From the IMG/VR virus record IMGVR_UViG_3300028423_000326, positions 1 through 49,889 of that record: DNA of 49,889 nt; one strand, 5' to 3'. The notes beneath the pieces were generated by a model. That model searched no databases, was not told where the DNA came from, and worked only from the letters and a program-made list of their open reading frames with translations. A program made the position numbers and the translations under genes. Of this stretch, positions 1,985 to 39,925 are shown in pieces (the first letter of the stretch is position 1; every line of letters begins with the position of its first letter). Source of the stretch: a virus.

Positions 1985-3854
1985 CAACAACCTCCCAATC
2001 TTGGCTAGAATCTTGTTCTTCAACTTTGTCGTAGTCTTGTAATATTGACTGGTCACTTTCTACATAAGGAAAGTCATCGTCAAGGGTTTCATCATCTGGC
2101 TCAACTTCAGACCAGTCATTTTCGTCAGAATTATAGTAAGAATAATACTCACAATACTCACCATATTCTCGGTCAAATAACATTGTAACCCTTGCTGTAT
2201 TACGCTTAATCGGGTCTTTTTCTGTACGGTCTCGCTGAATACCCCAACCATAGTGACTCCATTTCTCCATTGCTCGTGAGCCAGTAAATTGTGAAGATAA
2301 TACATCACCACCTTGGTCATGTGGTAAACCACTTTTAACTGGGTTTACATGAGAGTACATGAAAAACGTAACACTCAACTCCATGCACAAAGAAGCACAC
2401 TTGGACATAAATTTATTCAATATGTCATTAGCTTCCGCTGTACTATGCTCAGCAACTAAAGCGGTAAGCGGGTCGATAATAAATAACCAAATACCACGAC
2501 TATGCCAGTAACGTACAGTTTCGATTACTTCTTGCCAATCACGAACACCGTCACTTGAATAGAACTCCATTTTACCACGTAGTAAGTCCATAGATGAACG
2601 TAAATCTTCTTGGGTGTAACCTGCCACTTCAGGTGGCTTAGTAAATTGTTTCTTAGCGTATTTACCAGCAATCTTTTTCAATGTCTTAACAGGGTTCTCC
2701 TCAAGCGACATTACGCCTACTTTTTCACCATGAATATCTGTCAAGTGCTTAATGAGTTGGTGCTGATGTTCGGTCTTACCAATCTTAGGCGCTGCTCCAA
2801 CAACATGAATCTCACCCTGACGTATACCAAGAGTAGCTTTTGTAGCACTAGGCCACGGGAAGCTGATACCCATTTCTGGTACTTTTAATGCTTTCTCGAA
2901 TATGTCGTCCACAGTTAATACTTGTGATGGTCGTTTAGGTACTGCTTGCCAGAAAGCATCACGGATCATTTGTAACCCATTTTGCTTAACATTAGCGTCA
3001 CAAGGGTCTTTAGCATTTAGGTTGGCAACTAAAACTTTACCTGTACCAAATAGCCGAGTAACGTCTGTGGCAAATTTCTCACCAGCTTCATCTTTATCAG
3101 CGAAAACAATAATGTTCTCAAAAGAATTAAGGAACTCATAATTTCGCTTGTATGAGATTTGTGGGATAGCACCTCGACTACCTACTGTTGGGCTAACACA
3201 AGGGGTTTCATAGGATTTACCATCACCCTCTTTCTTCAACGCTTGGAATACAGCTAAAGCGTCCTCTTCTCCCTCAGTAAGAACGACAAATCGACCACCT
3301 CTACTAAATTGTGACATACCAAATAAGTCACACTCAACAGATACTTTACCAATAGGAAAGAACGGGTATTTTTTAATGGTCTTATCTTTTTTACGTGCTT
3401 GTTTAACAGGGTCATTACGAACATGGTAGCCGATTAATTCACCATTTTCAGTTGATGGGTAAAAACGTAATTCTACCTCATGGTTGTTGCGAGCTTGTTC
3501 ACCTAACATCTTAGTACGAACACCATATTTCTCACAAACAGCAGGTTTGATCTTACGGTCTTTCCATCCACGAAACTCAGGGTAATCCTGTGCTACAGAA
3601 TCAATGCGTTTTCTCATATCGTCTGTCATAATAAAAGATTTACCGTTAGCCTTTACTGCATAGTCAACTAGAACCTGATTCTCACCATCAGTAACATCAA
3701 GCTCCTTCAACTCGTCCTTGTTAATGTACCCACATTCACTCCAACAGTAGCCGTCCACATGACTCTCTTTCTGGTAAAGAGCTAGTGAATCCGTTGAACC
3801 ATGTTTAGGGCAAGCAACATGACCTAATAATTTACCTTGTTCTTCTTTACTCAT
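1977..3854 (-). CDS. Toprim primase / DnaB-type replicative helicase
   Basis: This is a bifunctional primase-helicase of 625 aa resembling T7 gp4. An amino-terminal zinc ribbon is formed by C15, H18, C37 and C41. A toprim fold follows, with EGEEDAL near residue 195 (catalytic Glu) and FADKDEAG near 251 (metal-binding Asp pair). A RecA-like helicase domain has Walker A GAAPKIGKTE at 353-362 and a hydrophobic Walker B strand ending in IIDP. The protein should unwind DNA and lay down RNA primers for the polymerase, whose start overlaps its stop by 8 nt, so the two are probably translationally coupled. An HNH gene sits directly upstream, with its stop touching this ATG. The last 60 residues are very acidic, which often marks a partner-binding tail. 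Confidence 0.93.
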   Translation of the reverse strand: MSKEEQGKLLGHVACPKHGSTDSLALYQKESHVDGYCWSECGYINKDELKELDVTDGENQVLVDYAVKANGKSFIMTDDMRKRIDSVAQDYPEFRGWKDRKIKPAVCEKYGVRTKMLGEQARNNHEVELRFYPSTENGELIGYHVRNDPVKQARKKDKTIKKYPFFPIGKVSVECDLFGMSQFSRGGRFVVLTEGEEDALAVFQALKKEGDGKSYETPCVSPTVGSRGAIPQISYKRNYEFLNSFENIIVFADKDEAGEKFATDVTRLFGTGKVLVANLNAKDPCDANVKQNGLQMIRDAFWQAVPKRPSQVLTVDDIFEKALKVPEMGISFPWPSATKATLGIRQGEIHVVGAAPKIGKTEHQHQLIKHLTDIHGEKVGVMSLEENPVKTLKKIAGKYAKKQFTKPPEVAGYTQEDLRSSMDLLRGKMEFYSSDGVRDWQEVIETVRYWHSRGIWLFIIDPLTALVAEHSTAEANDILNKFMSKCASLCMELSVTFFMYSHVNPVKSGLPHDQGGDVLSSQFTGSRAMEKWSHYGWGIQRDRTEKDPIKRNTARVTMLFDREYGEYCEYYSYYNSDENDWSEVEPDDETLDDDFPYVESDQSILQDYDKVEEQDSSQDWEVVDD

Positions 3855-4741
3855 TAATTATCCTCCAATTTTAAGCCGTGTGTTTCTGTGTAGCCTTCAT
3901 CGCCATATATCTCGTTCAAATACTCTATCTTTTCCTTACGATATTGACAAGCCATTTCGAACGCTTTATCTGAACCATGTCGTTTAATCGAAAACTTCTT
4001 AGTTCTCCTTTTGCCATCTGTGTCGTTATACCTAGCTGTCCAATACCCATCCTTAGAATAATGAACACCTGTCACACCAGATGTGTTTGTCTTATTCATT
4101 GTTCTATTTCTACTATTACTGTGTCTTGTAGCTAAGCGTAGATTAGAAGGGTCACAGTTTAACTTATTCCTATCAATGTGGTCAACTTCACTATCTCCAG
4201 TGGACATACCATTTGCCGCTTCCCACATAATTTTATGATAGAAATGGTTTTTGCCACCACTTGTGGTTATACTACAAACAACATAACCGTGTTGGTTAGT
4301 TCTATACCTCAATGGTTCTCCTATATCCATTCTAATACGACCACCACGTTCTATGGTGTCGAAGTTTGTTATCTTCCAGTAAAGTTTGCCGTCCTCTATA
4401 TAAAATACATTCCACCACTCTTTATTCATGCGGCTTTTTCGACAATAGTCGATATAATCTTTCTTGTATAAAATGAAATTTTCTTTGCTGAAGTCCTTAT
4501 AGTCTCCAATTCTCCTGAGTATATCCCCATCCTCAATCCCTCCATGCTTGAATTGGTACATCAGATAGTCTATGGGTATCTTTTCACCATCCACCATCGC
4601 CTTGAACTTATTATCCTTCGGATACCAAGAACCAACAGGTCTACCATTCACACTTTTAACCTTGTGACCCTTCCACCGCAAACAACTAGGACTAGACTCA
4701 TCATACTCAAATAATTCCCGTAACTCATCTCTGCTCAACAT
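3854..4741 (-). CDS. HNH homing endonuclease with AP2-like DNA-binding domain
   Basis: This is a putative free-standing homing endonuclease of about 295 aa. The HNH core is visible as EVDHIDRNKLNCDPSNLRLAT followed by HSNSRNR, giving the metal-binding His and the Asn-Leu-Arg segment. An AP2-like DNA-binding unit follows (SGVTGVHYSKDGYWTARY). The carboxyl end GYTETHGLKLE is shared with the HNH gene at 28026-28778. I chose the ATG at 4741; a GTG at 4753 in the same frame is also possible. The gene opens the primase-helicase/polymerase operon, and its stop overlaps the next start. Insertion beside replication genes is typical of this class of mobile gene. Confidence 0.88.
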   Translation of the reverse strand: MLSRDELRELFEYDESSPSCLRWKGHKVKSVNGRPVGSWYPKDNKFKAMVDGEKIPIDYLMYQFKHGGIEDGDILRRIGDYKDFSKENFILYKKDYIDYCRKSRMNKEWWNVFYIEDGKLYWKITNFDTIERGGRIRMDIGEPLRYRTNQHGYVVCSITTSGGKNHFYHKIMWEAANGMSTGDSEVDHIDRNKLNCDPSNLRLATRHSNSRNRTMNKTNTSGVTGVHYSKDGYWTARYNDTDGKRRTKKFSIKRHGSDKAFEMACQYRKEKIEYLNEIYGDEGYTETHGLKLEDN

Positions 4742-4781
4742 ACTTACCCCCACTCCTATCTAAATGTGTCTAACTCAATCA

Positions 4782-28025: not shown

Positions 28026-28778
28026 TTATGAACTTATTTCTTCTAGACTAAGACCATGTCGTTCTGTATAGCCTGCTCCGTTATTGTTTAGATATTCAAT
28101 AGCTAAGCTCCTAGTTTCTTCCGCAAGAAATCTGGCTAACTCATCTCCATATTTCCTAGTAGAAAACTGCTTGCTCTTACACTTACCATTGAGGTCTCTC
28201 CATGCAGCAACAAAAGACTTTATACCATTATCAACCCTAGTTGACACTCCTGATTTGCCTGTATTGTTCTTTGTGTTTTTCGATAGGTTTCGGCATTGAT
28301 ATTTTTGTTCAACCCATCTTACATTGTTTGGTTCATAGTCCCCATAAGTATTAATCCTGTCAAGTGTATACTTTTTACCGTCTTTAGGAATTGGTCCTAT
28401 ATGTTCATAGAAACTGACGAAGTCATCTACCCACTGGTCGAAAACTTTTATTCCTCTTGCTCCGTAGTGTGCATAGTTTTTATTATTTTCATTATAACAC
28501 CTAGCCTTCATTGACTTCCAACATTCGTGTTCTTTAGTTCTTGACATACCATGTGTCTTAAGTCCTTTTCTGCAACCACATGAAGAATAATGCGATTCAT
28601 ACATGGCATCAGATGGGAGTTCCAATTTATTACCGCATTCACAAGAACATAACCAATAAAGATGTCTCTTAACCTTGAGGTAAGGTTTTACCGTTGTCGG
28701 GTGCAAAACTGTTAAAATCCCTAGTTTTTCACCACATCTATTACGTCTACCGTGGGTTAGCAGGTGTTCATTCTTCAC
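28026..28778 (-). CDS. HNH homing endonuclease with amino-terminal zinc finger
   Basis: This 250-aa protein has a Cys-rich finger near residues 44-73 (CSCECG ... CGCRKG), then WKSMKARCYNENNKNYAHYG and the HNH-family segment YTLDRINTYGDYEPNNVRWV, then an AP2-like unit. It ends GYTERHGLSLEE, matching the end of the HNH gene at 3854-4741. The start overlaps the PhoH stop by 4 nt and the portal start lies 60 nt past its end, so it appears to have inserted between these genes. Confidence 0.9.
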   Translation of the reverse strand: MKNEHLLTHGRRNRCGEKLGILTVLHPTTVKPYLKVKRHLYWLCSCECGNKLELPSDAMYESHYSSCGCRKGLKTHGMSRTKEHECWKSMKARCYNENNKNYAHYGARGIKVFDQWVDDFVSFYEHIGPIPKDGKKYTLDRINTYGDYEPNNVRWVEQKYQCRNLSKNTKNNTGKSGVSTRVDNGIKSFVAAWRDLNGKCKSKQFSTRKYGDELARFLAEETRSLAIEYLNNNGAGYTERHGLSLEEISS

Positions 28779-31883: not shown

Positions 31884-32351
31884 CGTGCATCTCCTTTTCA
31901 GCATTAACCCTAGCCTGAATTGCGTCATCAATATTTTCAAATAATCCTAAGTATATCTTCACTCCGTTTTTGTGTATTTGAGCTCTCCACTTACCATCTC
32001 TTTTCATGAAGTCAACACCTTTATACCCTGATTTATTATTTTTTGATGTTTTCTGTTTATCATATTCTGGGAGTGTGTTGCAGCCCTTAAATTATTAGGA
32101 TTATTGTCGCTCGGGTCTCCGTCAATATGATCGACCTGCTCGGGCAAAAATCCGTTCACTAGGAAAAATATAATTCTATGAACAAGGTATCTTTTGCCTT
32201 TATACTTCAGTTGACGATAACCTCTTCCTATTTCGGAACCAGCTTCACAACCAGCTTTCGCTGTTCCTATATCAATAGACCATCTGAGAATGTAGCCATC
32301 TGGATCTAAATAAACCGGGATTGCTGGTGTATCTGCATTGTTAATTTTCAT
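31861..32351 (-). pseudogene. HNH endonuclease with AP2 domain, broken by a one-base frameshift
   Basis: The first frame (ATG at 32351) encodes an HNH domain (KRYLVHRIIFFLVNG, QVDHIDGDPSDNNPNNLRAA) and stops at 32004 after an unrelated tail. The other frame continues with SGYKGVDFMKRDGKWRAQIH and YLGLFENIDDAIQAR, a clear AP2-like half, to the TAA at 31861. Adding one A in the AAAA run near 32055 restores a continuous 163-residue protein; the span is one base short of a multiple of three. Inactive copy, or sequencing error. Confidence 0.75.
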
Positions 32352-33216
32352 AAAGTTTCTCCCATCCATTTTCCTCAAAGAATTTAATCACTTCTTTTGC
32401 CATAAATTCATGACCTTCTACGGCAAAGCTAACCGAATTACCAACGTCCTTGATGTGCTCTGCTAGATTATTGGTGAATTTATTTTGCTCGGATTGGATT
32501 GGGCGGATGTATTCAAGTCTAGTAACCAATCTTTCATTGGAATTTACAGTCTTTAGCCACAAGGCATCTTCGTCGGCAGACAAAACCTTGCACTTAACCC
32601 ATCTATCTCCAGTTACCAGACACTCTACAGTCGACCCAACTAGTTTCGGCTCAAGGTTAGTTGGCTTTATTGGTGTAAACTCACAATCGTTAGTAACAAC
32701 AAAATTCTTTTTATTGAAATGATTTTCCCCATCTATAGTTTTACACCAAACCTCATGCCCGTTATAACCTCGTATAATACAGTTACCTTTGTATTCTTTG
32801 CCTCGGCAATACCAGTAATCCACAACCTCCCCAACAGGCGGCAAATCCCCACGCTCAAACCAGTCTGATTTTCTCGTATCTTTAACCACGCTAACGTCGA
32901 TTATTTCATTACCTGTCTGCGTAACCGATAGCTCAAAGTCGCTAACATCAGTGCCGCAACGCTCCCAATCTTCTCTATCTTTACAGGCACGAATTCCGCA
33001 AGTATTGGTGTAAACATCTTCTGATTTTGGCTTGTAGCGTTCATCGACTATGCGGAATTTATCCCATTCTCTCCAGCTAGGAATTGAGCCTCTGACTTTT
33101 ACTTTTGATGGATACCACTCGTCATCAAGTCGGCAATAGAGCTCTATTAGCGTCCCGTTTGGCAGGTTCGGCTCCTCTCCGTTGCATGAGTATTCTTTCA
33201 TATATTCATATTTCAT
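32341..33216 (-). CDS. Unknown protein with repeated small beta domains
   Basis: This protein of about 291 aa has at least two related units of the type Pro-x-Gly ... Trp/Cys-x-Val (LPNGTLIELYCRLDDEWYPSKV, LPPVGEVVDYWYCRGKEYKG, PKLVGSTVECLVTGDRWVKC). Each looks like a small beta barrel. The ATG at 33216 has GGAGG seven bases upstream. I do not know the function. Its 3' end overlaps the broken HNH start by 11 nt. Confidence 0.65.
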   Translation of the reverse strand: MKYEYMKEYSCNGEEPNLPNGTLIELYCRLDDEWYPSKVKVRGSIPSWREWDKFRIVDERYKPKSEDVYTNTCGIRACKDREDWERCGTDVSDFELSVTQTGNEIIDVSVVKDTRKSDWFERGDLPPVGEVVDYWYCRGKEYKGNCIIRGYNGHEVWCKTIDGENHFNKKNFVVTNDCEFTPIKPTNLEPKLVGSTVECLVTGDRWVKCKVLSADEDALWLKTVNSNERLVTRLEYIRPIQSEQNKFTNNLAEHIKDVGNSVSFAVEGHEFMAKEVIKFFEENGWEKLYEN

Positions 33217-33691: not shown

Positions 33692-35038
33692 TTAATATTC
33701 CTTAACAACTTTGCAGTTAAAATTACTGCCAACTACAGCTTTGTACGCCTCAAACATAATCTCACGCAAACTATCTTCTTGACTGCGCTTGATAATAAAA
33801 CTGTCGTGCATGGACAACACAACCTCATTATTCCGAGAGAAATATTCGATAATATATGATGCGATACTTGAATCAATATTTTGTAAACTCAACCCAATTT
33901 GGTCATAGAAGTGATTCTTGATTGATTCATGTTTATACTCTAATTCGTTGAATATTGCAACCACAGATAGTAGATTTTCAATACCATAATATTTCAGAGT
34001 ATCTCGTTCACTGTTTATCCACTTGTTCCATAACTTGTTCTTCTCATCGTTATAGTCACCATAAACAGCCATTGTCGCTTCACGCTTATCACGAGTGTTT
34101 AGCATAACCAGTACGCATTTCTTTAGCAGATTGCGAACAGGGTCGAACTTATAATCACCAGTAGCTTTTCTATATTCTTCAATAGCATCATAATCTAATT
34201 CAACAACTTGGTCAATAGCTTCTTGGTCGATACCGTACAGGTCAAAACCATCTGGCAGATTTACGCCCTTAATGTCATAAAGAATCGAAGGGTGTAGTTG
34301 CGAATAGTCTAACTCACATACAGGCTCACCATCAATTTCAATTGTCTTGCGCATCTTGACAGGCATGGTGGACATAAACCCTGTAATATCATAATAACGA
34401 CCACCGTGGTCTAAGTCATTAGTGAATGAACGCTTATATACCAAACTTGCAACTCCAACTCTTTCTCCGTCAACTTCTACTGTAAAATTCTTATCTGATA
34501 AGAAATCGTTATACTCCATTAATGAATCCTCCAACTCTCGTTTCAATTTAACATCAATCTTACTTGCGTCAGTATTTTTATTTACAACTATCAATCCAGT
34601 TTTTACTGGCTTAACTACGTCAGACTTATTTGGCTTAATCATGTCAATAAGTTTAGGTAGTAAGATTATAAATGATGGTTCATATTCTGTCAAGACCTTT
34701 AGATATTTATCATAGTAAGCATAACCAATACTCAAGTCAATATAACCATCCTCTTGCATCATATTAAGTAAGTCAATAAACCTCTTGTATGAAACTTTCT
34801 TTTTGTCGAAACTATGTCTGCTTCTACTGTGTAATAGGGTGTTGCTGTTCTTGTCAATGGCAGTGGCAGAGTAGCTAAGTAGTAACTTCACTTCTGTTAC
34901 GTATTTATACTTGTACCTATCGAGTAGTTCACTCTCCACTTTACGTAAGTCTTTGCTAAACTTTGTCAGGAATCTACTGTAGTCCATTCTAATACACTTA
35001 GCATATAACTTGTTAATACTGTACTTCCTATCCTCCAT
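33692..35038 (-). CDS. Polymerase palm-like protein (family A-related), function unknown
   Basis: This 448-aa protein has three motifs in the order of single-subunit polymerases. A motif A-like ELDYSQLHPSILY lies at 242-254 (compare DYSQIELR in PolA), a basic helix RNLLKKCVLVMLN at 302-314 sits in the motif B place, and LSMHDSF is at 408-414 (compare VHDE in PolA and HDSF in T7 RNA polymerase). GGRYYDITGFMSTMPVKMRK precedes motif A, as in a group of uncharacterised bacterial proteins I recall. No exonuclease domain is visible. It is the first minus-strand gene beside the divergent control region. It could be a primase, repair polymerase or RNA polymerase; I cannot decide. Confidence 0.65.
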   Translation of the reverse strand: MEDRKYSINKLYAKCIRMDYSRFLTKFSKDLRKVESELLDRYKYKYVTEVKLLLSYSATAIDKNSNTLLHSRSRHSFDKKKVSYKRFIDLLNMMQEDGYIDLSIGYAYYDKYLKVLTEYEPSFIILLPKLIDMIKPNKSDVVKPVKTGLIVVNKNTDASKIDVKLKRELEDSLMEYNDFLSDKNFTVEVDGERVGVASLVYKRSFTNDLDHGGRYYDITGFMSTMPVKMRKTIEIDGEPVCELDYSQLHPSILYDIKGVNLPDGFDLYGIDQEAIDQVVELDYDAIEEYRKATGDYKFDPVRNLLKKCVLVMLNTRDKREATMAVYGDYNDEKNKLWNKWINSERDTLKYYGIENLLSVVAIFNELEYKHESIKNHFYDQIGLSLQNIDSSIASYIIEYFSRNNEVVLSMHDSFIIKRSQEDSLREIMFEAYKAVVGSNFNCKVVKEY

Positions 35039-37421: not shown

Positions 37422-37638
37422 ATGCAAAAACTATCGGATTTATCACCTGAGCAGAGGTTGGACTTGGGTGATCGGCTCAGAGCTATGCCGGACGATGAGA
37501 AGCGAGAGTTTCTGGAATCGCTTAATGAGCAACAAAGGCTAGATATTCTATACGACCCTATATTGCATATGAGAAAAAAGCAATGGGTAGCTCCAGACGA
37601 AAAAAAGAACATAACGCTTTTACTCTGTGGTCGTGGCT
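37422..37638 (+). CDS. terL: Terminase large subunit, exon 1
   Basis: The ATG follows GAGGT at 7 nt. The 72 codons encode an amino-terminal helix and end in ITLLLCGRG plus the first base of the next codon. Splicing to 37882 restores GRGFGKT, the terminase ATPase Walker A loop (residues about 70-76). Without splicing, translation stops at a TAA at 37644-37646, just inside the intron. The spliced gene is exactly 457 codons. Confidence 0.88.
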
Positions 37639-37881
37639 GGTATTAACAGGGTCACGTAAAACTCCTCTAATTCGGTGGACACCCTTTTTACTAAAGGACA
37701 ATACCGAGCAAGGCTTAACAGCCGTGTGTAACGACTAGGGCGTAAGTCCGTACACTCAAGTGAGTGGAAACGGGGAGCTTGGAATAATATTCCTTGAAGA
37801 TATAGTCTGAACTTCTATGGTAACATAGAGATGCGAGTAATGTCGCTGGCGTAGATTAACGACCTGCGTTGAACATATTTG
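37639..37881 (+). ncRNA. Group I self-splicing intron in terL (243 nt, no internal ORF)
   Basis: The flanking exon bases CGTGGCT (37632-37638) pair with the internal guide GGTCACG (37650-37656), ending in the required U-G pair at the splice site. The intron ends in a G (37881). Core signs are ACGACTA (37731-37737) pairing with TAGTC (37803-37807) as P7, the phrase AAGATATAGTCTG typical of group I introns, a P8-like hairpin around 37751-37766, and a P9-like hairpin CTATG/CATAG with GTAA tetraloop (37815-37828). Removal joins GGC-T and TT-GGT in frame. Intron in the Walker A codons follows the known habit of these elements to sit in invariant sequence. Confidence 0.9.
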
Positions 37882-39035
37882 TTGGTAAAACCTTCACTCT
37901 TTCACGTATGCTAAAGTGGTATCATAGTGAAATGGGTGTAAAGAATATTACAATCGCAGCACCCAGTTCTTTTGACCTAGTTCAAACAATGGTGAAAGGA
38001 AATTCGGGCGTGTTAGAGTGCTATGGTCCACACGAAAAAGCACCTAAGTATTCACCCCATTATAATACACTAGAATGGGATGATGGTGCCACTGCAAGGC
38101 TTATATCTAGTGAGTCTAGTGAAAGATCGCGCGGGGCCAATAGCGAACTATTGCTTGCGGACGAGCTCGGATCATTTGTGGGCGACCCTGTAGACTTTTG
38201 GCATAACCTTGAGTATGGTTTACGTCTAGGTGTTTCACAGGCAATTATTGCAACAACACCACGAGCCACACCGTTAATGATTGAGTTAGTGGAGCGAGCT
38301 AAAGACCCTAATAGTAACGTGCGAATAATACAAGGTACAACTTTGGAGAATGATAACCTCTCCCCTCAGATGCTTGAAAATGCTAGGCGCACAATGAACA
38401 CTAGGCTCGGTCGCAGAGAGGTGATGGGTGAGCTACAACTTAGCAATGAGAAAGCCTGTTGGCAACCTGAATTACTAGACAAGTGTAGAGCTACAGCTAC
38501 AGGGGAGTTTCACCCTAGTAAATGGCGGCGAGCAATTATTGGCGTTGACCCTGCTGGCGGATCTACGAGCAAAGACAGTGACAAAACTGGTATTGTTGCA
38601 GGAATTTTAACCGAATCTGGTAAAGTTCTTATAATTAAAGATTTGACCGACAGGATGACAGGTGAACAAGCTGTTTCTACGATTGCTAAACTTTACTATG
38701 AACTTAAAAATGTCTGCCCAGTTAAGGTCAGAGTCGAATCCAACGGGGTTGGGCAATATTTTAAGAGCATGATTGTTCGCGACCATCCATTTATTCCAGT
38801 TGAGTCATTCCCTAGTACAACGAAGAAATACTCTAGGGCTGTTGCTGCGGCACACCTTTATGAAACTGGCGTAGTGTTTCACGATAAAGATGCAGACCTT
38901 AATGATTTAGAGTCGGAACAGGTGTCATGGGAAGGTTTCAAGAAGAGTCCTGACCATGTTGATGCACTGGGTTTTTGCATAGAAGGGTTAACAGGGAATA
39001 AAAACTTCACAACCCGTAAACAATTTATTTTATAA
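37882..39035 (+). CDS. terL: Terminase large subunit, exon 2
   Basis: Exon 2 completes the DNA-packaging motor. It has GKTFTLSRML after the splice, Walker B LLLADELG, a coupling region with ATTPRAT, and an RNase H-like nuclease with VDPAGG, RVESNG and DHVDALGF providing the metal-binding acidic residues. Spliced length 456 aa is usual for TerL. It binds the portal, cuts concatemers and pumps DNA. It lies on the opposite strand from portal and capsid genes. Confidence 0.9.
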
Positions 39036-39041
39036 AAATTG

Positions 39042-39098
39042 TTGACAAAGACAAGCTCCTTAGATTATATTGGTAGAGATACTTTTATAACTAAGGAG
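39042..39098 (+). promoter_or_regulatory. Sigma70 promoter nested in an SD-masking hairpin before the HNH gene
   Basis: TTGACA (39042-39047) and TATATT (39066-39071) are 18 nt apart, start near 39078. CTCCTTAG (39056-39063), in the promoter spacer, is perfectly complementary to CTAAGGAG (39091-39098), which holds the ribosome binding site of the ATG at 39107. Read-through transcripts from terL can fold and hide the site; transcripts from this promoter lack the first arm. Confidence 0.72.
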
Positions 39099-39106
39099 TT
39101 TTTATT

Positions 39107-39925
39107 ATGGACTTTAGAGAGAAACTAAGGTTAAAGCAGAAGGCAGAACGTGAAGGGCTGGTTGTAGAATCCCATAACGGTTCTGTTGCTAAACTAATTG
39201 AATATGTTGACAGCATGAATTGTTTAATAGAGGTTGGTAGCGGTTATCGTTACTGGACAAGATGGCTGAATTTTCGGGATGGTTCATTCCGTGACCCTTA
39301 TGTAAGAACTAAGATCAGGTCTTATGAAGGTAGAGATAAATTATATGGGGTTGGTGTCTATGACACAGAAGAACAGCTTCATTACTATCACAACGGAAAA
39401 ATCCAAACTTGCGAGTTTTATGAAAGATGGCGTGGAATGATTAGACGTTGTTACTCTGAAGCTGCACTTAGAAAAAAACCTAGCTACAAGGGCGTTACAG
39501 TTTGCGATGAATGGTTGTACTTCACAAAATTTAGAGATTGGATGGAAAAACAACAATGGGAGGGTATGCACTTAGATAAAGACATCATCAAACGTGGGAA
39601 TCGAACCTATTGTCCAGATTACTGTAGTTTTGTTGATGCTGTGACTAATTCTTTCGTAGCACACACCTTCCCTAAAGACAGTGACTACCCTGTTGGTGTT
39701 ACTTATAATAAAAGAAATGACAAATACACCAGTAGATGTAATAACCCCTTCAGCGGTAAACGTGAATGGTTAGGGTTTTTCGACGACCCAATGGAAGCAC
39801 ACAAAGCATGGCAAACCCGTAAGCACGAATTAGCGTGTCAACTTGCTGAGGAACAATCAGACGGACGTGTTGCTAAAGCATTACGAGAACGATATGCGCC
39901 AAATAAGGATTGGACTAAAGCATAA
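39107..39925 (+). CDS. Free-standing HNH-family homing endonuclease with AP2-like domain
   Basis: This 272-aa protein has YERWRGMIRRCYSEAALRK, YKGVTVCDEWLYFTKFRDWM and HLDKDIIKRGNRTYCPDYC, a variant HNH family common in phages, then an AP2-like unit (YPVGVTYNKRNDKYTSRC, EWLGFFDDPMEAHKAW). It starts 71 bp after the intron-bearing terL gene and has its own promoter. It may cut the intronless terL site and so spread the ORF-less intron, as known for some phage intron/endonuclease pairs; that is inference. Confidence 0.85.
   Translation: MDFREKLRLKQKAEREGLVVESHNGSVAKLIEYVDSMNCLIEVGSGYRYWTRWLNFRDGSFRDPYVRTKIRSYEGRDKLYGVGVYDTEEQLHYYHNGKIQTCEFYERWRGMIRRCYSEAALRKKPSYKGVTVCDEWLYFTKFRDWMEKQQWEGMHLDKDIIKRGNRTYCPDYCSFVDAVTNSFVAHTFPKDSDYPVGVTYNKRNDKYTSRCNNPFSGKREWLGFFDDPMEAHKAWQTRKHELACQLAEEQSDGRVAKALRERYAPNKDWTKA

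Follow-up and report, generated by a model that had tools for sequence, protein, structure and literature searches.

An ORF-less group I intron within the Walker A codons of a viral terminase gene, and an adjacent HNH gene as its candidate mobility partner

INTRODUCTION

Tailed phages require the terminase large subunit, TerL. How, then, could a virus make this protein when the gene is broken within the codons of the ATP-binding motif? The sequence analysed here, referred to as the window, comes from an uncultivated virus and spans the whole of its IMG/VR record (IMGVR_UViG_3300028423_000326), 49,889 bases long and classed as linear; all features lie on the plus strand unless stated. Without splicing, its terL is two open reading frames, one of 74 codons (37422–37646) that ends in CGRGWY and a stop, and one of 388 codons (37869–39035). 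A first-pass annotation had read the interruption as a group I intron that splits the Walker A codons, had noted that terL introns are known from a few phages, and had placed the novelty in host range and exact site.

RESULTS

Removal of 243 nucleotides restores a complete terminase

The two fragments were recovered as described, and the first of them runs into the putative intron, where the stop codon TAA (37644–37646) lies just inside the boundary. Deletion of the 243 nucleotides from 37639 to 37881 yields, as had been proposed, a single frame of 457 codons (456 amino acids and the stop) that includes LLLCGRGFGKTFTLSRML and the Walker A motif GRGFGKT. Full-length TerL depends on splicing. 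Exon 1 (37422–37638), defined by the ORF call and the spliced translation, carries codons 1–72 and the first base of codon 73, and its N-terminus, MQKLSDL, is kept in the two relatives described below. Exon 2 (37882–39035), assigned from Pfam and T4 gp17 homology, encodes the remaining Walker A residues (FGKT), Walker B and the nuclease domain. The spliced protein matches Terminase_6N (PF03237, 6.6e-13) and Terminase_6C (PF17289, 2.7e-8) and, by profile, T4 gp17 (8e-7), combining Walker A, Walker B and an RNase H-like nuclease domain as expected of a terminase large subunit.

Searching viral contigs with the spliced TerL alone returned no close relatives, and among prophages with named hosts only distant TerLs were found, in Sinomicrobium and Sphingomonadaceae MAGs. 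Novelty in host range cannot be claimed for this uncultivated IMG/VR record.

Two further genes on the minus strand deserve mention in their own right. A DNA polymerase-like gene (1–2056) consists of two overlapping frames, with the exonuclease part at 1691–2056 and the rest at 1–1728, which may reflect a frameshift, a programmed shift or an assembly error. A 448-amino-acid protein encoded at 33692–35038 belongs to PHROG 4756 (function unknown) and, though Pfam gives no match, has motifs like those of family A polymerases (DYSQ..., HDSF); the sister virus G001, introduced below, has a comparable ORF that is also placed divergently.

The exon junction is placed by protein alignment and splice-site bases

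A profile made from 87 TerLs that lack an intron served to score 1,197 joins of the two halves, all in frame and free of stops. Two joins came out on top with nearly equal values, 37640/37884 (GRGWGKT) with 296.7 bits and 37638/37882 (GRGFGKT) with 296.2 bits; exon 2 by itself reached 249 bits. The protein score cannot tell these two joins apart, and only 37638/37882 has a U before the intron and a G at the intron end, being the best-scoring of the 1,197 joins with the U required at the 5′ site and the G required at the 3′ end. All intronless TerLs of the profile show GR[GA]xGK[ST] at the junction, where the residue of the split codon is most commonly F (41/87), followed by W in 28/87. The spliced TerL aligns with these proteins free of gaps, and G70, R71, G72, G74, K75 and T76 are invariant. 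Intronless relatives that fail to match the proposed junction had been named as evidence that would overturn the intron reading; the 87 TerLs match it, and the boundaries 37639–37881 within the Walker A codons are exact.

The insert is an ORF-less group I intron

Covariance-model search, the check suggested at the outset, returned RF00028 at 37611–37830 with 59.1 bits (curated cut-off 50, E 1.5e-12) over the full model (positions 1–253), and no other Rfam match anywhere in the window. Our own covariance model, R1, gave 234 bits for the intron, a score from a model built on a set that includes this intron. In P1, the 5′ exon half CGTGGCT (37632–37638) forms 7 bp with the internal guide sequence GGTCACG (37650–37656), ending in U38·G50 at the splice site (numbered by the last two digits of the position). 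This pairing, which had been proposed by inspection, was recovered by folding as the minimum-energy structure of 37626–37660 (−8.7 kcal/mol, z −2.1). The P1 aligned by Rfam, starting at 37615, lies too far upstream, on the exon, and was rejected in favour of the folded register.

The catalytic core contains P3, P7 and P8 in order, with pairing strands for the P3–P7 pseudoknot. The 5′ strand of P3, CTCCTC (37662–37667), was placed by folding with its partner GGGGAG (37772–37777); in G001 the 3′ strand is GAGGAG and the pairing is kept. P7, the guanosine-binding helix, follows from core assignment as GACTA (37733–37737) with TAGTC (37803–37807), and it carries no covariation evidence because it is nearly invariant among nine aligned introns. 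Folding further places a P6-region hairpin GGCTTAACAGCC at 37712–37723, P7.1 and P7.2 at 37738–37749 and 37754–37765 (together 37738–37765), the P8 hairpin at 37781–37793 and P9.1/P9.2-like hairpins at 37833–37868 ahead of the 3′ splice site. P9, with its GUAA tetraloop, occupies 37812–37830 according to both RF00028 and the core assignment, in agreement with the P7 and GTAA-capped P9 first seen by inspection. The intron ends, as had been stated, in G: its tail TTGAACATATTTG terminates with the omega G at 37881, the same tail closes the G001 intron with G, and the tail of the Vibrio phage D181 intron is similar.

The P7.1/P7.2 insert is a hallmark of IA introns, and both elements are found here between the P7 5′ strand and the P3 3′ strand, as in subgroup IA2. 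A P2 helix between P1 and P3 is absent, with the guide adjoining P3 directly in the window and in G001, and we therefore use the label IA2-like only. Some of the other introns aligned likewise show no P2. The minimum-energy fold of the whole intron is mildly better than that of shuffled sequences (z −1.6), in a fold model that leaves out the P3–P7 pseudoknot. The 243-nt insert has stops in all three frames and encodes no ORF, consistent with the initial description; hence this intron has no homing endonuclease of its own.

Four other explanations of the gap in terL, a group II intron, an intein, a frameshift and an assembly error, were considered and rejected. Rfam matches nothing there but group I, the insert has stops in every frame, which speaks against an intein, and an independent contig contains the insert as well.

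A sister virus carries the same intron at the same codon

That contig is IMGVR_UViG_3300048444_000173 (G001), an 82,362-base IMG/VR record whose terL locus, L010, was found by a DNA pattern of the intron core. A further pattern scan gave 48 loci, among which the model search placed this intron behind the exon motif only in L010; in 80 more distant intact TerL loci no intron was found. The G001 TerL is 59% identical to that of the window and is interrupted at the same codon by an intron of 232 nt, which has the same tail and is 88% identical; there too, terL is followed by an HNH gene, and the leader of that gene is shared. The G001 intron differs from the window intron in its length, a shorter P1 loop, one shorter hairpin and a compensatory pair in P1: the exon reads CGTGGGT and the guide GCTCACG, turning the window pair C37–G51 into G–C. 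In the exon, GGC becomes GGG, and both encode Gly. Together with the RF00028 score, an intron that two viruses share at one codon, with this compensatory change, is more than chance would give.

P1 was the only helix for which covariation was counted. Taking in the first terL intron of Shewanella phage KASIA (see below), all 21 pair cells (21/21) are standard in the three introns and 2/7 pairs are changed on both sides, and slid P1 registers of the three introns show no compensatory pairs. A shuffle control for the covariation gave 48/500, which is weak with three sequences, and we take the P1 compensation as supportive rather than statistical evidence for the pairing.

These comparisons bear on the reading that the intron no longer splices and that terL is simply broken in the record. 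The virus is known from metagenome assembly alone and P2 is missing, as might be expected of a remnant, but P2 cannot be seen in some of the other aligned introns either. Moreover, the core is intact, both exons are open and conserved, and guide and exon have co-varied in G001, where the same intron is kept; a tailed phage, in addition, needs TerL. We consider a splicing-defective remnant very improbable.

At the DNA level, the window and G001 are 83% identical ahead of terL, 61–63% within its exons, 88% over the intron, 94% over the leader of the HNH gene (39036–39106) and 68% in that gene itself. The rise at the intron begins and ends abruptly at the splice sites, and the exon sequence beside it (53–63% identity) shows no co-conversion. 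An intron far less diverged than its gene suggests, on these comparisons, that the intron came in later or was exchanged; constraint on the RNA could contribute to its high conservation.

Related and unrelated elements interrupt terminase motifs elsewhere

Group I introns in terL had been said to be known already, and they have in fact been reported in LL-H, Moonbeam, Silence, Shewanella phages 1/4 and 1/40, KASIA, phiAGATE and SIOphi (PMC4299906, PMC4599081, PMC8541194, PMC11878797); in the course of infection, splicing was observed for two of them, those of phiAGATE and SIOphi (PMC11878797). Self-splicing started by guanosine is reported for phage terL introns other than this one, and some phage introns splice in cells alone (PMC11878797). 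LL-H, Moonbeam, Silence, SIOphi and phiAGATE resemble the window in having group I introns in terL (PMC11878797, PMC4299906, PMC4599081). Those of Moonbeam and Silence differ by carrying an endonuclease gene, and the intron of Bacillus phage Silence sits after the SFNP motif.

The closest precedent for the site is Shewanella phage vB_SspS_KASIA (MZ568826), the terL of which is annotated in three pieces. Its intron 1 (L158:7823–8152), of group I and with no annotated ORF, falls between GR[GA] and GKT at the same codon as here and in the same phase (GRA(Y)GKT); the 7-bp P1 of this intron, CGTGCGT/GCGCACG, ends in U·G and supplies the second compensatory pair. It differs from the window intron in its length of 330 nt and in having little similarity outside the core; the TerL of KASIA is only distantly related, and its terL has a second, HNH-bearing intron further on. 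The KASIA authors reported its terL introns to be absent from cDNA of infected cells, and the text of their paper says nothing of Walker A or the P-loop (PMC8541194). Colwellia phage 9A, an intronless relative of KASIA, has an uninterrupted GRAYGKT. No paper in the library searched brought Walker A together with a group I intron in a terminase. Judged from the KASIA sequence, however, the Walker A site is not new, and the claim of novelty for the exact site was overstated.

Another member of the lineage occurs in terL of Aeromonas phage phiA009 (OM033134). Its intron (L003:2376–2652) is 75% identical to the window intron over 150 nt and lies in the same gene, but the codons it interrupts are those of Walker B, and Walker A is intact; the join GGCTT|TGATGAG restores FDE (FV-G-F|DE). 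The phiA009 record lists the two parts of this terminase as genes of their own.

A different element occupies the motif in a second relative, IMGVR_UViG_3300030100_000755 (G002), an 83,986-base IMG/VR record whose locus, L029, was found by a two-sequence profile. The terL frame (L029:2945–5191) encodes 748 amino acids, and its TerL is syntenic with, and 54% identical to, that of the window. The same Walker A motif is interrupted at GRAWGK^T, in frame and 8 nt downstream of the window intron site, by a protein intein, the end of which matches the NCBIfam intein C-terminal motif. L029 has no group I intron in terL and no HNH gene behind terL; a diverged HNH gene (31% over 195 amino acids) lies ahead of it (L029:2165–2881). 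Separately, in both G001 (L169, around 1561–1792) and G002 (L170) a ribonucleotide reductase gene is interrupted near KQSNLC by an additional group I intron, and that of G002 is 77% identical to the window intron over 83 bases of the 3′ part.

A free-standing HNH gene adjoins terL in both intron carriers

Directly behind the intron-bearing terL, in the window as in G001, lies a free-standing HNH endonuclease gene (39107–39925; phrog_953, E 4e-78), with syntenic copies 63% identical. An ORF-less intron with a free-standing endonuclease gene next to its host gene is the arrangement expected for collaborative homing, and the gene is a candidate mobility partner. No solved structure is related to the HNH protein by sequence. 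Three more HNH-type homing endonuclease genes lie in the window (3854–4753, 28026–28778 and, on the minus strand, 32004–32378), one of which adjoins the portal gene.

The leader of the HNH gene contains a promoter-like element, TTGACA-18-TATATT (39042–39071), that matches 11/12 consensus positions and is conserved in G001, and a hairpin, CTCCTTAG/CTAAGGAG, predicted by folding over the AAGGAG ribosome-binding site (39056–39098). The hairpin has −20.8 kcal/mol (z −5.4), and −2.6 kcal/mol without its 5′ arm. AAGGAG is the 3′ arm, and the 5′ arm lies between the promoter hexamers, upstream of the predicted transcription start; transcripts from this promoter would thus lack the 5′ arm and fold weakly. 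On this fold model, the hairpin would hide the HNH ribosome-binding site only in transcripts that read through from terL.

These features suggest that the HNH enzyme might cut terL genes lacking the intron, in the P-loop region or close to it, and that repair would then copy the intron and the HNH gene together. By analogy with T4 I-TevI and Aeh1 mobE, the hairpin would block HNH translation in read-through terL mRNA, and the gene's own promoter would allow it; a comparable hairpin/promoter arrangement has been reported for both (PMC2988022), and the precedent extends to PMC3984707. The position of the gene in both carriers argues for such a partnership, as do the identities of intron and leader, far above those of the terL exons and the HNH body, and the L029 locus, where the intron and an HNH gene behind terL are missing together and the diverged HNH gene stands in front. 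Against it, only two carriers were found, and a scan for HNH relatives added none beyond G001; no exon co-conversion is seen beside the intron, and RNA constraint could account for the high conservation. We regard collaborative homing as a serious possibility that falls somewhat short of probable. It adds to the intron explanation and does not replace it.

DISCUSSION

We are highly confident that terL of this virus contains an ORF-less, IA2-like group I intron in phase 1 of codon 73, which splits GRG-F-GKT and splices to give full TerL. That splicing occurs in the window virus itself we infer from its sequence and its relatives. The intron would fold in the transcript and align the 5′ exon CGUGGCU on the guide sequence; guanosine bound in P7 would cut after U37638, and U37638 would then be joined to U37882 after G37881. 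The spliced RNA alone would encode an ATPase-competent TerL, the unspliced product ending in GRGWY at the intron stop. The intron would be retained at the P-loop site because only its exact loss leaves a working motor.

Splicing might also have a regulatory role, in that it would wait for high GTP or heavy ribosome traffic and thereby time packaging. A molecular-switch function has been suggested for introns in core genes of Bastillevirinae, and terL splicing in phiAGATE is late (PMC11878797). In the window intron, however, we saw no sensor domain or regulatory conservation, and the KASIA relative 9A manages without an intron. We consider such timing improbable.

The intron may have moved by homing, in which the free-standing HNH nuclease encoded next to terL perhaps took part. 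In a wider and more tentative proposal, which as a whole we think rather unlikely, the P-loop codons would be, throughout this clade of terminases, a shared landing site over which three kinds of parasite compete, an ORF-less group I intron, an intein and a free-standing HNH nuclease, the intron being moved in trans by an HNH enzyme whose translation is switched by a hairpin formed only in read-through terL transcripts.

Terminase is a marker gene often used for the classification of tailed phages, and automated annotation of genomes such as this one would report a broken terminase. With the window intron, a second lineage joins that of KASIA at this codon. Counting the intein of L029, no more than eight bases separate unrelated splicing elements in the ATP-binding site of the packaging motor, which fits the rule that introns and inteins prefer, or persist in, the most conserved motifs (PMC2814812). 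With the intron, its target gene and the HNH gene within 2.5 kb, the locus is a compact candidate for collaborative homing.
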